Assembly: GCA_017511645.1 (NCBI GenBank)
Contig: JAFWJH010000006.1
Location: 1 to 43,065 of the forward strand
Length of the DNA: 43,065 nucleotides
Reading direction: 5' to 3'
DNA from: Candidatus Saccharimonadota bacterium
GTDB lineage: Bacteria; Patescibacteriota; Saccharimonadia; Saccharimonadales; Saccharimonadaceae
Part shown: positions 343-14,799 of the stretch, one piece after another
Numbering within the stretch: the stretch's first letter is position 1
Layout: every line of letters starts with the position of its first letter
The notes under the pieces: generated by a model
Seen by the model: only the letters and a program-made list of their open reading frames with translations
Database searches by the model: none
What the model was told of the DNA's origin: nothing
Program-made: the position numbers and the translations under genes

Positions 343-2256
343 TTACATGCCTGGTATCTTGAACGCGCCCGGATCGGCAGCCTGTGGGGTATAGACTTGG
401 TCTTGCATGGCTGGCTGTGGCCCAAGCGAAGTAGGGGCCTCTGGTGTAGTCTCTGGAGCCGGAGCGGCTGGTTCGATCGGAGCTAGTGGCTCAGTAGGCA
501 TAGCTGACTCGGTGGCTGGAGTATTCATATCGATAGGTGGAGTTGGTGGCGGAGGCAAAACTTCTTCGCCTGGAAGTGGCATATAATTCATCTCGGGAAC
601 GCCGTTAATTTCTGGAGTAGAAGCTACCGTTGGAGCCATAGTAGAAGCAGGGTTGTCGCTCATGATAGGCTCGGTTGGCTCGGCGGCTGATTCGCCAAGG
701 CTAGAAATGGCGTCTTCTAACATCTTGCCGTATTTTTCGGTGCCTTCGTCTGGAGCGCTAAAATCTACACCAGTAGATGGCTGGATAACTTTTTCGGGTT
801 TGTCGCCAGATTTATTAGTTCCCTCTTGTTCTGGTAAGGTTTCGTCTGGTGATAGAATTGGTGGAAGAGACGGTTCGTCTAGGCCTGGTGCGGCAACAGG
901 TTCGGCCGGGTCTACCGGTTCTGCTGGTATTACCGGCGCAGGGATATTAAAGTCTGAAGTTGGGGTAGATTCTACTGAGGCGGTAGGCCCTGGAGATTCG
1001 ATAGGTTCGGTTGGCTCTGTTGAGGCACTGTCTAGCTTGACTGGTTGATTGCTAAGGTCTGGGACTGTCTCGCTACCAGCTTGAGCGAGGCTAGCTTCGG
1101 CGGCCTTGAGATCGTCCAATAAAGTGGAATTCTCTTCTGTAATAGTGGCATCTACTTCTTTGGATTCGTCAGCGCTTTCTTCGTTGCCGTGTTCGATATC
1201 TAACTTAGTAGGATCATTGTCACGCTTGGGGGCATTATCGCCGAGCAACGAATAGAGCTCGTTATCTATATCTGGAGTGATATTTTGGGAAATTAACTGC
1301 TGATTGGCGCCAGACTCCATCAAACGAGAGGCAATCTGCATAGTATCTGGGGTAGTTTTGGCATTAGAAAAGCGATTAGTCGCAGCAACGATGCCGGTGA
1401 GGAAGGCTGTAGCTTCTTCTTTTTCGAGCTTGACTTTACCACTGACACTATAAAGTAATTTCGCGATCATTTCAGACACGGAGCTGGCAGATTTATCGCT
1501 CCATTCAATTTCGCCTAGCTTGCCAGGATTGCCAGTAGTAATATTCACGATAACGGCATCGTGCATGATGCGGCCATGCTCACGCAAAGCAGCATCGAGA
1601 TCGATGCCATTAGCAACATCAAGAGCAAGGACAAGGTCTACATTGAAATCACCATATGAGAACTCGAGATCGTCTTCACCGATACGGGTCTTGTATGGAG
1701 TAATGAAAATCTTTACGTAATCACCGTCTAACTTATAGCGAAGGTGATCGGCTTTGTCTTTGTTTAACGCAATGACGAAATCTTGTAAAGTGTCCGCGGT
1801 GGACTCAAAAGTCTCTTCCGGTTTTAGAAACTCGAGCGCGTTAGGGGTAGAGCCAGAATAAATAGCGGTGGCGCGCTTACCAAGCTTGTCTAAGAAAAGT
1901 GATAAGCCAATAGCGGCGGCCATTTCGTCTACTGATGGGTCACTAGACAAAGCTACAAGGACATTTTGCGATTCGGCGATTTTTTTAGCTACTTCTGTAG
2001 ACAAATCTGTGCTGGCAGCCGGGGCATCACTCGAGATATTGGCATAATCTAGGTCTGGGGTTACTACTGACGAATTTTCGACAACAGCAGGAGCCGGCGG
2101 CGCAAAAGCAGCGGCTGGATTGGATATATTAGATTCGTCAGTATCCGTTTTTGGTGCTGGAGCATCAGAAACTGGCACGCTAGGTGTCGGGATGTCAGAA
2201 ACTGGGGCTGTCGAAGCCGGAGTGACTGGGTTAGTTGAAACCGCATTTTGGTCCAT
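343..2256 (-). CDS. DHH-fold protein with lost catalytic motif and long Pro/Glu-rich tail
   Basis: This 637-residue protein has a Pro/Ala/Ser-rich N-terminus (1-85), a region of about 85-330 resembling the DHH phosphoesterase fold of NrnA/RecJ-type proteins, and a long acidic Pro/Glu/Thr-rich tail (about 345-637). In the fold, the first motif reads DPSVDEMAAAIGL, and the ASSVSEMIAKLL segment matches the helix that follows the DHH signature in the family. The position where active enzymes have DHH reads NITTGN, and other metal-binding Asp/His positions also look changed. It is therefore probably not a nuclease and may act as a binding or structural protein. The start codon is placed by a promoter (TTGCGG, 17 bases, TAACAT) ending 6 bases before the ATG, which predicts a leaderless mRNA. 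The homology is judged by eye. Confidence 0.7.
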   Translation of the reverse strand: MDQNAVSTNPVTPASTAPVSDIPTPSVPVSDAPAPKTDTDESNISNPAAAFAPPAPAVVENSSVVTPDLDYANISSDAPAASTDLSTEVAKKIAESQNVLVALSSDPSVDEMAAAIGLSLFLDKLGKRATAIYSGSTPNALEFLKPEETFESTADTLQDFVIALNKDKADHLRYKLDGDYVKIFITPYKTRIGEDDLEFSYGDFNVDLVLALDVANGIDLDAALREHGRIMHDAVIVNITTGNPGKLGEIEWSDKSASSVSEMIAKLLYSVSGKVKLEKEEATAFLTGIVAATNRFSNAKTTPDTMQIASRLMESGANQQLISQNITPDIDNELYSLLGDNAPKRDNDPTKLDIEHGNEESADESKEVDATITEENSTLLDDLKAAEASLAQAGSETVPDLSNQPVKLDSASTEPTEPIESPGPTASVESTPTSDFNIPAPVIPAEPVDPAEPVAAPGLDEPSLPPILSPDETLPEQEGTNKSGDKPEKVIQPSTGVDFSAPDEGTEKYGKMLEDAISSLGESAAEPTEPIMSDNPASTMAPTVASTPEINGVPEMNYMPLPGEEVLPPPPTPPIDMNTPATESAMPTEPLAPIEPAAPAPETTPEAPTSLGPQPAMQDQVYTPQAADPGAFKIPGM

Positions 2257-3315: not shown

Positions 3316-4171
3316 GGTTTCGCTCCTGGCAGCGTGGACAAAGATGAGTGCCGCGGCCAGCCACCCTAATTTTAATAATTTCGGTGCTACATTTTGGGCA
3401 AGGCTGACCTTCACGATGAAAAACTTGGGCAAATTTCTCTAGATAATCGCCTTTAGTGCCGTCCGCTTTAACATAAGTAGCCATAGTGGAGCCGCCGGAT
3501 TCGATAGATTTATCCATCACGTCGCAAGCGGCTTGGAGCAATTTTGCGGCTTCTTCTCTGGTAATGCTACCCGAGCGGCGCTCTGGGTGGATACCAGCGG
3601 CAAAAAGTGATTCGTCGGCGTATATATTACCCAAACCACAGATAATGGTTTGGTCTAAAATTGTAGCTTTGATACATGAGTTTTTGTGCTTTTGGAGTTT
3701 GTCGTAAAACTCATCTATCGTCATAACCCAGGGTTCTTTGGCGAGTTTTTTGATGAAAGGGTCGCTTACGACTTCTGTAGTTCTTATAATCTTAATGAAG
3801 CCAAATTTGCGCTGATCATTAAAATAAAGAGTGCCGTCTGTGAATTTTATAAGCACACGAGTCTGCTTGTTGGGAAGCTCAGCGGTAAAATTATCGCTGG
3901 GGTGGCCAGCGGCGTAGCGCTCTTTCCTGGCTCCGTCGTAGATAAGCTGTCCGGTCATGCGCAAGTGAATCATCAGCGAGGTGTCGTTATCTAAATCTAA
4001 AATTAAAGCCTTGCCAAAACGGCGAATCTCTTTAATAGCATGATTCTCGGCTTGGCCTGGCTGGCCCTGAAAAGATTTATCACAAAAAACTTCGATTTTG
4101 GTGATTTTTTTGTGTAAAATAAAATCTTTCAAGCCACGACGGATAGTTTCAACTTCTGGCAACTCCGGCAT
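3308..4171 (-). CDS. mutM: formamidopyrimidine-DNA glycosylase (Fpg/MutM)
   Basis: Fpg removes oxidised purines such as 8-oxoguanine and then cuts the abasic site. The N-terminus after the initiator Met is PELPEVETIRRGL, giving the catalytic Pro1 and Glu2 of the mature enzyme. The FGKALIL segment supplies the conserved Lys, and the C-terminus has the zinc finger CPKC...CPRC with the DNA-contacting Arg in VAGRGTH. At 287 residues the length is normal. The start at 4171 is fixed by this motif and by the ribosome-binding site AAAGGAG; the frame stays open upstream but without family similarity. It forms an operon with holA. Confidence 0.95.
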   Translation of the reverse strand: MPELPEVETIRRGLKDFILHKKITKIEVFCDKSFQGQPGQAENHAIKEIRRFGKALILDLDNDTSLMIHLRMTGQLIYDGARKERYAAGHPSDNFTAELPNKQTRVLIKFTDGTLYFNDQRKFGFIKIIRTTEVVSDPFIKKLAKEPWVMTIDEFYDKLQKHKNSCIKATILDQTIICGLGNIYADESLFAAGIHPERRSGSITREEAAKLLQAACDVMDKSIESGGSTMATYVKADGTKGDYLEKFAQVFHREGQPCPKCSTEIIKIRVAGRGTHLCPRCQERNHD

Positions 4172-4332: not shown

Positions 4333-4773
4333 ATGAAGAAAATCATTTATCGCAATCCAAATGATGCTGAAAACTTTGATATGAAGAGGTTTTTAAAATC
4401 ACTCAGCAAGTATGCGAAAATCTCAGAAAAAGAAGCTAACGAGGCTTTGGCAGAGTTCGACCAGTACGAGACGATGCATGTTTCCTGCTTGATAGAGGCA
4501 GGCATGAAATTGATCGGCGACAAGGCGGGCGATGAAGCGATGAAAGAGTATTTTGATGAACACGCAGAGTATTTTGACGAGGGTAAATTCGAAAGGCTTC
4601 GTCGCATTACTGGCTACCTCGTGGGTACTTTGGACCGCTGGAACGATGCCAAGAAAGCTGAAGAAAGCGCTCGCGTAAAGCACTCAGTGAACTCGGCGAT
4701 TGATGATGCGGCGAGACTAGCTGCGCTAGAAACCCAAGCAATGGAACACAACATCGCTTACGCAACACGCTAG
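4333..4773 (+). CDS. small protein with a tail resembling stand-alone NrdD-type proteins
   Basis: The protein has 146 residues, is helical and charged, and has no signal peptide or membrane segment. The part at about 95-120, RITGYLVGTLDRWNDAKKAE, resembles the GY(L/Y)..(L/V)..WN..K..E tail found in class III (anaerobic) ribonucleotide reductases and in short proteins annotated as related to NrdD. It has one cysteine (SCLIEAG) and no glycyl-radical site, so it cannot be a reductase by itself. It has a strong promoter of its own and a ribosome-binding site (AAAAGGAAAA). Its last 4 bases overlap the RhuM-Fic gene on the other strand. The function is unknown; a role in nucleotide metabolism is only a hint. 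Confidence 0.55.
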   Translation: MKKIIYRNPNDAENFDMKRFLKSLSKYAKISEKEANEALAEFDQYETMHVSCLIEAGMKLIGDKAGDEAMKEYFDEHAEYFDEGKFERLRRITGYLVGTLDRWNDAKKAEESARVKHSVNSAIDDAARLAALETQAMEHNIAYATR

Positions 4774-5744
4774 TTTTCGAGCAATTTACAGATGAGGGCC
4801 ACTAGGAGGCCCTTTTCTGATGGGCTAGATTCAGCAATGAGAAGCGCCAAAGCAGTGAGGGCTCGGTCGCTAATTTTGGTTTCGCCGTTCTTGGTAAGAT
4901 GATAGTCATTGATAGTGAGAAAAACTACAAAAAGCAGAGCGCCAATGCGTTTGTTGCCATCGTAAAATGGGTGGTCTTTGATGATGAGGTATAGAAGGTT
5001 GGCGGCTTTTTCGGCAGTAGAGGGGTAGACGTCCTTTCCGTCGAAAGTTTGAGCGATAGCGCCCAACGTGGAGTCAAAGGAAGCGCCTCTTGGTTTTCCG
5101 AAAAGTTCGTCGCCCTTGACGCTGCGTTTTAGTTCGGCGATCATTTTTAAACCATCATCTCTAGTAATGACTTTGGTGGCTTTTTTACCTTTAGCAAAAG
5201 AGATATGCCCTTCATCGTATTCCTGGAGAGCCTTAAAACTGGGGGCGTATTTAGTGATGACCTCGAGAATGCCGCCGGCTTCGCTGGCTGATAAATCAGA
5301 GGCGGCGACTAAACGCTTGACGATACCAAGCGCGCCTTCGATCTCGTGAAGCTTTTTGGAATCTAGCTCTTTGAGGCGGCGCTGATTAATAACTACGCCG
5401 TCGATGACATAGTGGTGGAGGACTTTAGTAGCCCAAATGCGAAAATCGGTAGCCTTTCTAGAATTAACACGATAGCCAACAGAGATAATGGCATCGAGGT
5501 TGTATACCTTAACTTGGTAAGTTTTGCCGTCTGCTGCAGTATGTGCAATTTTTGCACATACTGCACTTTCTTCTAATTCTCCATCTCGAAAAACATTGCG
5601 AATATGGCGCCCAATTACAGTACGATCTACGCCAAAAAGTTTTGCTAGTTGTTCTTGCGTGGCCCAAATAGTTTCTTTATTCGAATCAACTCTAAAAACT
5701 ATTTCTCCTTCGTGGACTTTATAGATTTCAATGTTTTTTTCCAT
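4770..5744 (-). CDS. RhuM-Fic fusion protein
   Basis: The protein has 324 residues in two parts. Residues about 1-145 match the RhuM virulence-protein family, with TIWATQEQLAKLFGVDR (a helix-turn-helix-like segment) and RIWATKVLHHYVIDG. Residues about 195-324 form a Fic/Doc domain with the intact catalytic loop HPFYDGNKRIGA. Fic domains usually transfer AMP, or phosphate in Doc, to target proteins, often as toxins or effectors. The N-terminal DNA-binding-like part and palindromes at the promoter and inside the gene suggest autoregulation. No antitoxin gene is adjacent, and no clear inhibitory helix motif was found. The ribosome-binding site is AAAGGAA. It could be a stand-alone regulator or toxin, or an effector acting on the host bacterium. 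Confidence 0.85.
   Translation of the reverse strand: MEKNIEIYKVHEGEIVFRVDSNKETIWATQEQLAKLFGVDRTVIGRHIRNVFRDGELEESAVCAKIAHTAADGKTYQVKVYNLDAIISVGYRVNSRKATDFRIWATKVLHHYVIDGVVINQRRLKELDSKKLHEIEGALGIVKRLVAASDLSASEAGGILEVITKYAPSFKALQEYDEGHISFAKGKKATKVITRDDGLKMIAELKRSVKGDELFGKPRGASFDSTLGAIAQTFDGKDVYPSTAEKAANLLYLIIKDHPFYDGNKRIGALLFVVFLTINDYHLTKNGETKISDRALTALALLIAESSPSEKGLLVALICKLLEN
5536..5564. repeat. perfect 13-bp inverted repeat inside the RhuM-Fic gene
   Basis: The arms GCAGTATGTGCAA (5536-5548) and TTGCACATACTGC (5552-5564) are exact complements around the loop TTT. The core AGTATGTGCA recurs at the promoter (5757-5779), which points to a shared binding site rather than chance. It lies about 180-210 bases inside the coding region. 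Confidence 0.75.
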
Positions 5745-5756
5745 ATAATTCCTTTA

Positions 5757-9286: not shown

Positions 9287-10099
9287 ATGGCGAATTTTTT
9301 TACTCCTGATGATCCGCTTAATCAGATTATTGCAAGAACTTTTCCTGAAAAGAAAATTATAAAGACTCAGCACATTTTGACGGGATGGACTAATATCGTA
9401 ATTGAGGTGACGACAGATGTGGGTGCGTATTTTTTCCGTTTTCCTAGGAACCCATTTTGGTCTAAGATGATTGTAAAAGATGCGGCGGTGTGTAACTTTG
9501 TGGATGGCAAGACTAGTTTTTATACGCCACAGATGACCTTGTATTATGACGAAAAGAACCGACCGTATTCGGTACATGAAAAAATTGAAGGATACACTTT
9601 GGGGGATCGGATTTATCATTTATCACATACAACACTAACCAATGCGGCATATGATGTCGCGAAGTTTATCAAAGAATTGTCAAACATTAATCTTAGTAAT
9701 GCTCCAGAAAAAGCTAAATATCCTTTGAGCAAGTTTTTACACGAGCTAGATTATGAACATTACGCCAAACATATAGACGATGATCACAAATTTATTAAAG
9801 AGACCGAAATGGACAATTTAGTGCATGGAGACTTAAATCTTGGCAATATTTTGCTTGATACAAATGACAAAGTAATTGGCATAATAGACTTCTGTTTTGC
9901 GGGGACGGGCAACCCGAATATGGATGTGGCGCGGATGGTGTCACGCCCAGCGCCAGAGGAGTTTGAAAAAACTTTTCTCAGTTGTTTTGACGACTTGGAC
10001 GAGATAGAACGCATGCGCAAAGCTTGGAAGAATATTGACAACGGCTACGCCGAACACATTCGAGCCAATTTTCCAGAGATTAATTTGAACCAGTTGTAA
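9287..10099 (+). CDS. aminoglycoside/choline phosphotransferase-family kinase
   Basis: The 270-residue protein shows the APH/choline kinase fold: the catalytic loop LVHGDLNLGNILLD (His, Asp and Asn in the usual order) and the metal-binding Asp in GIIDFCFAGTG. The N-lobe is short and has a small-residue loop, LTGWTNIVIEV. Known members phosphorylate small hydroxyl compounds such as choline, ethanolamine, sugars or antibiotics; the substrate here cannot be read from the sequence, and resistance should not be assumed. The gene has its own leaderless promoter. Its last 20 bases overlap the zeta-like gene on the opposite strand. Confidence 0.85.
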   Translation: MANFFTPDDPLNQIIARTFPEKKIIKTQHILTGWTNIVIEVTTDVGAYFFRFPRNPFWSKMIVKDAAVCNFVDGKTSFYTPQMTLYYDEKNRPYSVHEKIEGYTLGDRIYHLSHTTLTNAAYDVAKFIKELSNINLSNAPEKAKYPLSKFLHELDYEHYAKHIDDDHKFIKETEMDNLVHGDLNLGNILLDTNDKVIGIIDFCFAGTGNPNMDVARMVSRPAPEEFEKTFLSCFDDLDEIERMRKAWKNIDNGYAEHIRANFPEINLNQL

Positions 10100-10886
10100 G
10101 ATATTTTATTTTGGCATTGCGGCGGGCGTCGTCATCGGCAGCGGGGAAATCTTCGCGTGTCGAATATTTGGTAAAAATCTCGGTACTGTCTTTAATCGGG
10201 CCGTCATATACCGGAGATTTGTCGTAAACACTCCAAATAATAATGCGGGTATCAGGGGCATGCTCGGCATAAAACTCAAGAGCGTGCGAGGTAGCGCGAA
10301 TGAACTCTAGTTCGGTTTCTTTGGAATGACGCCAAGCGCGACCAGAAAGATATTTTTCAGTAACGGTAGGTGATACAGCAATCATCAAGATAAGCATTTG
10401 ATAATTTGACCCATCAAGAAACTTGAGTAAGATGGACTCCATTTTTGGATCAAGCAAAGTAACATCTAATATAATATCGTAGCCACCCTTTAAGAGCTCG
10501 GACAAGGTCATAAATAACATAATGGTGCTAAACTCGTCGGTCATTTTGCGGAGGTTTTCGTCACCGTAAAAATCTTTGATTTCTTGGTAGTGTGGATGAT
10601 ATTCTACGAAACGACGAGCAGCCATCAGAATAGGTTCGAAATTGTTTTTCTCACAGTAGGCCTCTACGGCTGGGAGAATCTGAGTAGTTTTGCCCGAGCC
10701 AGAAACGCCGGCGATACGAATAATCTGACGATTTTTGGTAGCGGCAAGAGTAAAATCTGCAAGAACTTTTTGCAAAATTTCGGGGTATTCTTTGAGACCG
10801 ACTTGCCATTCTGGCTTTACCTCGCTAGGCCAGTGGGCGCGCATATATTCGATAACTTGGATTAACTCTCGATTACCTTCAGACAT
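10080..10886 (-). CDS. zeta-toxin-like P-loop protein
   Basis: This 268-residue protein has a Walker A AGVSGSGKTT at about residue 60 and a following segment RRFVEYHPHYQEI that resembles the D/R...HP.Y substrate loop of zeta toxins (UDP-GlcNAc kinases). A later Arg-rich helix (GRAWRHSKETELEFIRAT) could be the lid. About 55 residues before the P-loop form an N-terminal helical domain. No epsilon antitoxin gene is adjacent; instead it ends the dagK-like operon, so a housekeeping kinase role is also possible. The ATG at 10886 follows GAAAGGG and lies 25 bases inside the upstream gene. Confidence 0.6.
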   Translation of the reverse strand: MSEGNRELIQVIEYMRAHWPSEVKPEWQVGLKEYPEILQKVLADFTLAATKNRQIIRIAGVSGSGKTTQILPAVEAYCEKNNFEPILMAARRFVEYHPHYQEIKDFYGDENLRKMTDEFSTIMLFMTLSELLKGGYDIILDVTLLDPKMESILLKFLDGSNYQMLILMIAVSPTVTEKYLSGRAWRHSKETELEFIRATSHALEFYAEHAPDTRIIIWSVYDKSPVYDGPIKDSTEIFTKYSTREDFPAADDDARRNAKIKYLTTGSN

Positions 10887-12171: not shown

Positions 12172-13146
12172 CTACCTTAAATACTCATGTAATTTTTTAG
12201 TATCTTTATTCTTGCGAAGCTTAGAGAGGGCTTTAGCCTCAATCTGGCGGATACGCTCACGAGTAACATCGAATTCATTACCAACCTCCTCCAATGTGTG
12301 AGGGCGACCACCGCCAATGCCAAAACGCAGGCGGATGATTTTTTGTTCCCTGTCGGTAAGTGTGGCAATAATTTCAGAAAGTTGTTCTTTTAGAATCTGG
12401 TTAGCGGCAGAATCTTCGGGAGAGGCGCGCTCTTCGTCTTCAACAAAATCACCGAGCACGGAATCTTCGTCATCGCCTTCGCGGCCAACAGAAGCGTCGA
12501 GCGAGGCAATATCTTGCTTAATGCGCATTACGTAGTCGATCTTCTCTGGTTCCATATCAAGCTCTTTGGCGATTTCTTCGTTAGTAGGCTCACGATTAAG
12601 CTCTGAAGTAAGTTTACGAGTAGTACGTAAAACTTTATTAATAGTCTCTACCATGTGCACTGGGATACGAATAGTACGGGCTTGGTCGGCGATGGCACGA
12701 GTGATAGCCTGACGCACCCACCAAGTAGCATAGGTAGAAAACTTAAAACCCTTATCAGGATCAAACTTCTCGACAGCACGCAAAAGCCCAGTGTTTCCCT
12801 CTTGAATAAGATCAAGAAAATCCAGGCCGCGACCACCATAGCGCTTAGCGATAGATACCACGAGACGCATATTGGACTCTACCATTTTGTCTTTGGCTTT
12901 TTTATCGCCTTTGACGATACGCTGAGCAAGTTCGGCTTCTTCTTCGGGGGTAAGTAGAGGAATTTTGCCGATTTCACGCAGGTAAAGCCGAACAGAATCG
13001 TCGGCAAAAGCGTCAACGTTTTCGGCGGTAATGGCGAGTTCTTCGTCAGAAAGCTCTTCCTCGTTCTCGAGGTCATCATTCTCTGGCTCGTCTAAATCTG
13101 CGGTTAGATCTTTTGCGTTCAAAATATTATCTTTTTTAGCGCTCAT
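12172..13146 (-). CDS. rpoD: primary sigma factor RpoD (compact)
   Basis: This sigma-70 directs RNA polymerase to the -35 and -10 boxes seen across the window. It has 324 residues: an acidic N-terminus (1-45) instead of a full region 1.1, region 1.2 ([17 protein letters not shown]), region 2 with [17 protein letters not shown] and [15 protein letters not shown], region 3, and the region 4 helix-turn-helix [20 protein letters not shown]. The upstream TATACT box ends 7 bases before the ATG, predicting a leaderless transcript. It is followed by the VirB2-like, dagK-like and zeta-like genes. Confidence 0.97.
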
Positions 13147-13161
13147 TAGGCTTAGTATAGT

Positions 13162-14799
13162 CTAATTTTTATCTTTTTGCAAGTCTCGAATCTCTTTCAG
13201 AACTTGGTCATATTGATCGTTTTCTTCATCTAGCTCATTTAACTTATCGCTGAGCTCTTTGATGCGCTGTTTTTTAAGCTCAGAGTTATAACGGGCGAGG
13301 AGCTCCCTAGCTTCACGCTCGAGGTCAGAAGTTTGATAATTTTGATGCTCAGAGTTAAAAACTAGTTCTAGCTCGGCTAGACGAGTCTCATCGTCTGAAA
13401 TCTCGAGCGGAATCTGCACCTTGGTGACACCGCCAAAAATTTTAATGGCTAGGAGGCTGTTTTCGAGTTTTTTAAGCGTGTCATTTTGGATCTCAGTTTT
13501 GGGTTTTTTTAGATATTTTCTGCTAGATTGTTCTAATTTTTTGTTCAATCTTTCGCCCTTTTCACGGAGAATCTCTACTTCAATATCCAGTTTTTTTGCT
13601 ACCTTTTCTTCGTAGCTGGCGCGCTCAACCTCATCTTTGATGTAGCCAAGTAATTTTAGGGCGATGTCAGAGTATTTACGCTTGCCGGGCGCCGAACTTA
13701 GGTCTACTCTTTCTTCGTATTTTTTTAGCAGCCAATCTACGGCAGGAACGCTTTTTGCTACTGCGGCTTGCCAGAGGGTGGGGTCTTTTTGGATTAATTC
13801 GTCGGGGTCTTTGGCGCCGTGATAGTCGGAAATAACAGTAAGGTCGATGCCAAGATCGCCGGCCATCATAATGGCGCGCTCAGTAGCCTTGACGCCAGCT
13901 TCGTCGCCGTCGTAGGCGAGACGGATGTCAGAGGTGAGGTTGGCGAGAGATTTAAGGTGTTGTTCGGTCATGGCGGTGCCAGATGTCGCTACAGCCTCTT
14001 TGACGCCAGCCTGATGTGAAGAGATTACGTCCATGTTCCCTTCCACTATCACGACGAAACCGCTACGACGAATAGCCTCTTTGGCCTGATGCAGGCCAAA
14101 AATAAAACGGGACTTATTAAAAAGTAAAGTTTCTGGAGTATTGAGGTATTTTGGCTCGCCCTTACCTAAGATTCGTGCGGTAAAACCAATTACATTACCA
14201 GTAGTGTCAATAAATGGCACCATCATGCGGTCGCGAAACATGTCGGATTTGAAGCGATTGAGAAGACCAGCAGCGTCTAGCTCGTCTTCAGAAAAACCGC
14301 GTTTTTTGAGAGCTTCTGTCAAGGCTTTACCACTGGCTGGCGAGTAGCCAATTTTGAACTCTTCGACTGTTTTGCGATTAAGATTACGTCGGTAAAATAC
14401 ATACTCGCAGACATTTTTACTGCGAACTAGGCAGGCTTGATAATATTTAGTTGCTAAATTCAAAGCCTCGCGAACGCGAGCTTTTTTGTGGGAGACTTGT
14501 AGGTCGCCGCCGCGATATTTAGCGAGGTCGACTCCGGCTTGGCCGGCGAGTTTTTCCATTGCCTCACGAAAACCAATACCCTCTACCTCCATAACAAAAG
14601 TAAAAATATCGCCGCCTTTATTGGCAGAAAAATCATGCCAAATACCTTTTTCAGGCGAAACCATAAAACTGGGAGTCTTGTCTACACCCCAAGGCGAGCG
14701 ACCTTTGAGATTGCGGCCAGCCCTCTTTAATTCCACGTACTGCCCCACCACATCTTCTACCGACAGCCGGGATTTTATTTCTTCCTTGGCGTCTTGCAT
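13162..14799 (-). CDS. dnaG: DNA primase DnaG lacking zinc ligands
   Basis: DnaG makes RNA primers for replication. At 545 residues the protein has the N-terminal CHC2-type domain (1-95), the TOPRIM catalytic core with VVIVEGNMDVISSHQAG and RLAYDGDEAG, and a C-terminal helical region expected to bind the replicative helicase. The N-terminal domain keeps the family's frame (YVELKRAGRNLKGRSP, KTPSFMVSPEKG, KGGDIFTFVMEVEG), but the four zinc-binding positions read Ser, Gly, Asp and Ala (RSPWGVDK and IWHDFSANKGG instead of CPFH and HCFGCG). The mRNA should be leaderless: the -10 box ends 8 bases before the ATG. rpoD follows 15 bases downstream with its own promoter. Confidence 0.95.
   Translation of the reverse strand: MQDAKEEIKSRLSVEDVVGQYVELKRAGRNLKGRSPWGVDKTPSFMVSPEKGIWHDFSANKGGDIFTFVMEVEGIGFREAMEKLAGQAGVDLAKYRGGDLQVSHKKARVREALNLATKYYQACLVRSKNVCEYVFYRRNLNRKTVEEFKIGYSPASGKALTEALKKRGFSEDELDAAGLLNRFKSDMFRDRMMVPFIDTTGNVIGFTARILGKGEPKYLNTPETLLFNKSRFIFGLHQAKEAIRRSGFVVIVEGNMDVISSHQAGVKEAVATSGTAMTEQHLKSLANLTSDIRLAYDGDEAGVKATERAIMMAGDLGIDLTVISDYHGAKDPDELIQKDPTLWQAAVAKSVPAVDWLLKKYEERVDLSSAPGKRKYSDIALKLLGYIKDEVERASYEEKVAKKLDIEVEILREKGERLNKKLEQSSRKYLKKPKTEIQNDTLKKLENSLLAIKIFGGVTKVQIPLEISDDETRLAELELVFNSEHQNYQTSDLEREARELLARYNSELKKQRIKELSDKLNELDEENDQYDQVLKEIRDLQKDKN

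Follow-up and report, generated by a model that had tools for sequence, protein, structure and literature searches.

The DNA primase (DnaG) encoded in the stretch of DNA analysed here, 43,065 nucleotides that we call the window, has lost all four zinc ligands of its CHC2 domain. We consider it likely that this protein, the sole replicative primase of the cell, performs the same job with a zinc-free ribbon, and that its change forms part of a wider loss of structural zinc. Zinc is taught to be a conserved feature of bacterial primase and RNA polymerase and, in the case of primase, to be needed for template recognition.

The dnaG gene and its CHC2 domain

The domain search gave the usual order for DnaG, with the CHC2 domain followed by the catalytic core, the TOPRIM domain and the helicase-binding segment. 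The gene, its parts and its downstream neighbor are located in the window as follows:

13162..14799, minus strand: dnaG, DNA primase of 545 residues with an ATG start (open reading frame and TIGR01391)
14521..14790, minus strand: CHC2 (zinc-ribbon) domain, residues 4-93, ligands replaced (PF01807; predicted fold similar to 1D0Q)
14695..14697, minus strand: codon of Ser35, the first zinc Cys elsewhere (alignment, codon comparison)
14686..14688, minus strand: codon of Gly38, the zinc His elsewhere (alignment, codon comparison)
14632..14634, minus strand: codon of Asp56, the third ligand, Cys elsewhere (alignment, codon comparison)
14623..14625, minus strand: codon of Ala59, the fourth ligand, Cys elsewhere and Ser in most of the order (alignment, codons)
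14080..14442, minus strand: DNAG_N, N-terminal domain of the primase catalytic core (PF08275)
13792..14055, minus strand: TOPRIM domain with its acidic catalytic residues (PF13155; invariant E/G/D alignment columns)
13573..13737, minus strand: DnaB_bind, helicase-binding segment (PF10410, 41.0 bits, cut-off 20.6)
12172..13146, minus strand: rpoD-like sigma factor gene, adjoining dnaG downstream (NCBIfam)

With 363.6 bits against TIGR01391 in a profile search (curated cut-off 283.6), the protein is a complete DnaG primase, and PF10410, being above its cut-off, provides the helicase-binding segment of a DnaG primase. Homology of the CHC2 domain is established by PF01807 (86.7 bits on the genome, 83.1 bits on the protein, cut-off 24.9), in agreement with the earlier note, which had described this domain as well conserved apart from the ligands. 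The TOPRIM residues E253, D297 and D299 (numbering of P0001) are present, and are invariant or above 90% in the alignment. Past the helicase-binding segment, the C-terminus (13162-13570, minus strand) is short and evolves fast in the genus of the source genome and in g8, where the open frames of DnaG have about 540-565 residues, against mostly 580-610 in the order. The minus strand of the window also encodes a RhuM-family domain fused to a Fic domain (4770-5750; PF13310, PF02661) and a zeta-toxin-like kinase domain (10080-10886; PF06414).

In the alignment, the C-H-C-C ligands correspond to S35, G38, D56 and A59 of the window DnaG, as had been read earlier from the sequence alone, so that none of the three Cys and one His ligands of a CHC2 domain is left. 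A review (PMC6163395) describes these ligands as highly conserved and as the residues that hold the zinc. SGDA stands at the four positions in 80 of the 80 best-matching named relatives, including Candidatus Nanosyncoccus alces and three loci that miss the strict motif (L009, L079, L080); a sequencing error or an oddity of a single genome is therefore rejected. While the residues are invariant, their codons are not: S35 is encoded by four codons, G38 by four, D56 by two and A59 by four (78 of 81 rows). Among 72 relatives, identity averages 99.3% over residues 35-63, whereas the catalytic core reaches 82% and the C-terminus 57.5%. Since the codons vary while the amino acids stay, in a block that is near-invariant, selection holds the new residues in place.

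The structure predicted with AlphaFold2 depended on the alignment. When only close relatives were supplied, pLDDT was below 50 at residues 33-61; with a wider alignment (84 other rows), we obtained five strands and a block pLDDT of 81-93 (residues 1-70). This model superimposed on the zinc domain of B. stearothermophilus primase (1D0Q) with a TM-score of 0.87, normalized by the target, at 1.9 Å, and a second structure comparison gave a Z-score of 16.4 at 1.6 Å over 97 residues, so that the comparison with the Bacillus zinc domain proposed in the earlier note ended in a match of folds, for a predicted model. Of the 84 added rows, however, 68 were viral DnaG sequences, drawn from a set of 80 in which 64 have zinc ligands. 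Because many added rows carry ligands, the model demonstrates compatibility of the zinc-free sequence with the fold and does not speak for folding without zinc, and it may lean on the zinc-bearing rows. No other part of the protein is as conserved as the CHC2 domain, for which a zinc-ribbon fold is predicted; judged by conservation and model together, the domain is a working zinc-free variant and not a ruin.

The earlier note had held that a primase without zinc would need another way to hold its template. Given that the predicted fold and the conservation of residues 35-63 are both retained, the same job without the metal is the simpler reading, and we do not follow the note on this point. 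The His directly preceding the third ligand is retained in the window DnaG as H55, a position that we take to be equivalent to the start-site residue of C. difficile primase; both H55 and D56 are invariant in 73 rows. In the C. difficile enzyme, a Lys or His at the latter residue affects the choice of start site, according to PMC5204125. Mechanistically, the ribbon would probably be held by hydrogen bonds and by packing around the new Ser and Asp and their Trp and Phe neighbors. Its predicted fold and its conservation make it most likely that the domain continues to select the start site on the template and to present it to the TOPRIM active site, in the way zinc primases do.

Distribution of the zinc-less domain and number of losses

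We collected ligand states from 220 of 223 loci; of the other three, L142 duplicates the window gene, and L143 and L144 lack the domain. The genomes came from two partly overlapping draws, 147 from the class and 145 from the phylum, and by the order we mean what we take to be GTDB Saccharimonadales. Within the genus, all four rows read SGDA (five of five counting the source genome). The pattern is S-x-D-S in all 30 rows from other genera of the family and in all 33 rows from other families of the order, such that the C-H-C-C cluster would have become S-x-D-S, with Ala as the last residue in the genus itself. Other orders of the class are divided, with 13 C-H-C-C and 14 zinc-less rows (n = 27), the zinc ligands being retained by neighboring families of the class, and in the rest of the phylum C-H-C-C was found in 41 of 45 rows, which were chosen and not random (the 30 best and 15 picked among weaker ones).

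To these counts we add a scan of evenly drawn genomes for the DNA pattern of the signature P-[FW]..D-F, which was positive in 37 of 379: all 32 of the order, 2 of 5 from the rest of the class and 3 of 342 elsewhere. A control with the reversed pattern found no match in the scanned genomes. The scan covers the D-type signature, and forms with indels or with a retained third Cys escape it. The alignment check proposed in the earlier note thus came out clade-wide, through the 80 relatives and every row of the order, and neither of the observations named there as refuting was made, namely a strain with CxxH and CxxC or a second, intact dnaG. PF01807 has a single match in the source genome (9 contigs, 76.7% complete), where we found no second dnaG, and exactly one match in each of 26 genomes of the same genus (97-100% complete), for four of which ligand states were collected.

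Fifteen drawn genomes had no usable CHC2 domain and were excluded from the state counts; 14 had no PF01807 match and one (G048) only a short one, and in two of the 15 (G250, G046) DNAG_N was matched at a contig edge. Four genomes that are 98-100% complete (G002, G173, G105, G217; G173 a single contig) had neither CHC2 nor DNAG_N, which need not mean loss of the gene.

A tree of the catalytic part of DnaG, with the zinc domain excluded (146 rows of the phylum), requires at least five changes of state. In it, the zinc-less rows of the class form two groups, one being the order and the other comprising families f17, f21, f23 and f27, and the two are separated at well-supported forks by C-H-C-C clades (f20 with f22, f24-f26; f18). 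An AU test on DnaG did not reject a single zinc-less clade (p = 0.133). A tree of RpoB from 27 genomes, in which the long branches of G003 and G018 call for caution, recovered the same two groups and rejected the single clade (p = 0.0005), so that one single loss in the class is rejected on RpoB and not on DnaG. Separate cases in the phylum are f35 (SRDS, SKCT), f51 (STCT) and f64 (SRDS). The replacements recur throughout: the first Cys becomes Ser, the third Asp, the last Ser, Thr or Ala, and the His nearly anything. Rows with SHDA or SHDT show that the His can persist longest, and rows with SKCT or STCT that the third Cys can persist.

Other zinc sites and the cause of the loss

In the source genome, zinc-free variants of zinc proteins extend to RpoC (the β′ subunit of RNA polymerase) and the ribosomal proteins L36 and S14, next to a zinc finger that is retained in the window:

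Contig C2 of the source genome, G000 (L384; L388 2721-6587), minus strand: RNA polymerase β′, all eight zinc cysteines gone (alignment)
Locus L388 of the source genome: L36 without zinc ligands (sequence reading)
Locus L390, about 1480-1750, minus strand: S14, zinc-free long form (sequence reading)
3320..3409 of the window, minus strand: Fpg/MutM zinc finger with its ligands, CPKC..CPRC (PF06827, 43.6 bits, cut-off 21.3)

RpoC of the source genome is 1294 residues long and contains 3 cysteines. Among 25 genomes, both of its zinc sites, ZBD1 and ZBD2, are broken in nine of nine from the order and intact in the 16 others, five of which are the second group with zinc-less DnaG. The loss hits the zinc cysteines and spares the others, and remnants of one or two cysteines are left in ZBD2 of G057 and G144. 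G003, whose RpoC was too short for the alignment, is outside these 25 genomes; at the RpoB locus of this genome, the first cysteines of ZBD1 are present. S14 is zinc-free also in G012 and G039; the outgroup G168 has both S14 and L36 in the zinc form.

The four-cysteine zinc ribbon of LigA (PF03119, matched in 32 of the 147 class genomes) is lost in 18, retained in 10 and unreadable in 1 of 29 genomes (loci L395-L423, including L411 from G018). It is missing from 6 of 7 f1 genomes, 4 of 7 readable other genomes of the order, all 6 genomes of the second group taken with f19, and both f20 genomes, which have a zinc-type DnaG; since these two lack the ribbon and four genomes of the order retain it, its loss does not track that of DnaG. 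No match to LigA or to the DnaJ zinc domain was found in the source draft genome, which says little as the draft is 76.7% complete. Taken together, the sequences show zinc sites lost across the order in DnaG and at both positions in RpoC, lost in a mosaic in LigA, and lost in L36 and S14 as far as genomes were read. This suggests that DnaG is one case of a broader loss by which, step by step, the nucleic-acid machines of the class have given up structural zinc.

Zinc is not avoided altogether. A survey of 183 kb of the source genome, including the window, found, besides the Fpg finger, the motifs of MetRS (CSGC..CPDH) and GlyRS (CKEC..CPVC) and the zinc sites of prepilin peptidase, TGT and dCMP deaminase, all of which we presume to be zinc sites from what is known of their families. 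Cysteine makes up 0.77% of open reading frames of at least 150 residues over these 183 kb, and in the catalytic part of DnaG 0.44% in zinc-less rows against 0.38% in CHCC rows; on these frequencies, a general avoidance of cysteine is rejected. Because the retained sites coexist with lost ribbons and cysteine is not avoided, the loss is, as far as sequences tell, selective: structural ribbons of the polymerases, the ligase and the ribosome are gone, and catalytic sites and synthetase knuckles stay.

As the likeliest cause, we propose that a small cell dependent on its host spares zinc permanently. This is the weakest step of our reading, and we put it forward tentatively, at slightly less than even confidence. 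The losses in RpoC, LigA, L36 and S14 fit a reduced use of zinc, and so does the choice of proteins, because RNA polymerase and the ribosome are large stores of zinc; the sites kept in Fpg, prepilin peptidase, MetRS, GlyRS, TGT and dCMP deaminase mean that zinc was not scarce enough to end all use. The idea in the earlier note, that a primase without zinc could suit a cell receiving limited zinc from its host, thus gains some support but stays tentative, given the sites retained in the source genome and the three ligands lost from DnaG of Methylobacterium. We judge it less probable that erosion was neutral and then became entrenched, with zinc dispensable, ligands lost by chance in small drifting populations and the new packing fixed, all without selection on zinc. 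Such a course would account for the mosaic of losses across proteins and lineages, for partial states in DnaG (SHDA, SHDT, SKCT, STCT) and in ZBD2 of RpoC (CCSS, SCSS), and for the zinc sites kept in aminoacyl-tRNA synthetases and metabolic enzymes, but it sits poorly with the same replacements (Ser for the first Cys, Asp for the third, and Ser, Thr or Ala for the last) in separated lineages, these being the two class clades, f35 and f64, and with the disappearance of several structural sites of the core machinery, two of them in RpoC of every order genome read.

Oxidants from a host or partner could also have favored the replacement of oxidation-prone zinc-thiolate ribbons, the zinc being lost with the thiols. 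Most lost ligands are indeed cysteines, and the stated sources of the relatives are mostly animal gut or rumen; yet given the cysteine frequencies above, and because MetRS, GlyRS and Fpg still have CxxC zinc knuckles, oxidant avoidance fits the lost thiols less well, and we regard it as improbable. The domain might still bind a metal through Ser, Asp and the neighboring His, as the invariance of D56 and H55 would permit. The remaining positions, filled by Gly, Thr, Asn, Lys or Ser and by Ala, Ser or Thr, are unlike a usual zinc site, however, and we know of no metal site with such a Ser/Asp/His pattern, which makes this proposal very improbable. Finally, loss of the zinc motif in T7 primase ends template-directed priming, so that damage could be expected here as well, with a broken, non-functional domain and a primase working without it. 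We give this hardly any credence in view of the conservation of the CHC2 region, the purifying selection at its new residues and the lack of a broken copy among the 80 relatives.

The order may have permanently rebuilt replication, transcription and part of translation without structural zinc, with hydrogen-bonded cores of the Ser/Asp type taking the place of zinc clusters repeatedly and independently. This is a conjecture to which we give not quite an even chance; on that reading, an RNA polymerase without either β′ zinc site could be its most striking case, a view we hold with equal reserve. Natural, fixed zinc-free versions offer a direct route to asking what the metal does, and the mosaic of retained and lost sites within one class provides sister lineages for comparison. 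Should zinc sparing be true, the enzyme chemistry of host-dependent bacteria would be tied to metal supply.

Comparison with known systems

The window DnaG shares its domain order, TOPRIM residues, helicase-binding segment and predicted fold with the bacterial DnaG proteins of known structure, 1D0Q and Aquifex 2AU3 (the latter matched with 194.8 bits), but has S, G, D and A where these have four zinc ligands. Partly zinc-less domains exist in Methylobacteriaceae: DnaG of Methylobacterium bullatum (L365, NZ_LR743510.1) reads SNCS and that on the megaplasmid of Methylorubrum extorquens AM1 (L371, NC_012811.1) SQCS, both having lost the first Cys, the His and the last Cys and kept the third Cys. 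Their SPF..FSS in place of CPFH..FGC resembles the window DnaG. As they belong to a different phylum, this loss is an independent event, and we know of no comparable host dependence in Methylobacterium. The DnaG matches read from Leptospira, Sphingomonas, Paracoccus, Sinorhizobium, Tistrella, Halomonas and Persicobacter retain the Cys/His motif. In DnaG from viral contigs, the ligands are missing from 16 of 80 loci and present in 64 (11 rows judged by eye). The replacements in viral and phage DnaG (SVDS, SGDS, STCS or STCT; among others in L285, L299, L323 and L347) follow the same grammar as in the window DnaG, although these are genes of mobile elements and, in contrast to the window DnaG, often retain the third Cys. 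With the Methylobacterium and viral cases, the zinc-free CHC2 domain is, at the level of sequence, a recurrent variant.

The C-minus forms of S14 and L36, both present in the source genome, are likewise zinc-free versions of a structural zinc ribbon. In other bacteria, C-plus and C-minus ribosomal proteins are often paired paralogues under Zur, whereas for DnaG no zinc-bearing paralogue was found in the source draft genome or its 26 congeners. Mitochondrial Twinkle resembles the window DnaG as a descendant of a primase-helicase without the zinc function of the primase; it has lost its priming activity, according to PMC7231222, while the catalytic residues of the window DnaG are intact. A search of open-licence PMC texts, which is weak evidence of absence, found no account of zinc loss in the primase of Saccharibacteria or other Patescibacteria. 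Compared with these systems, what is new to us is the fixed and complete loss of the DnaG ligands over a whole order, together with that of the β′ zinc sites.
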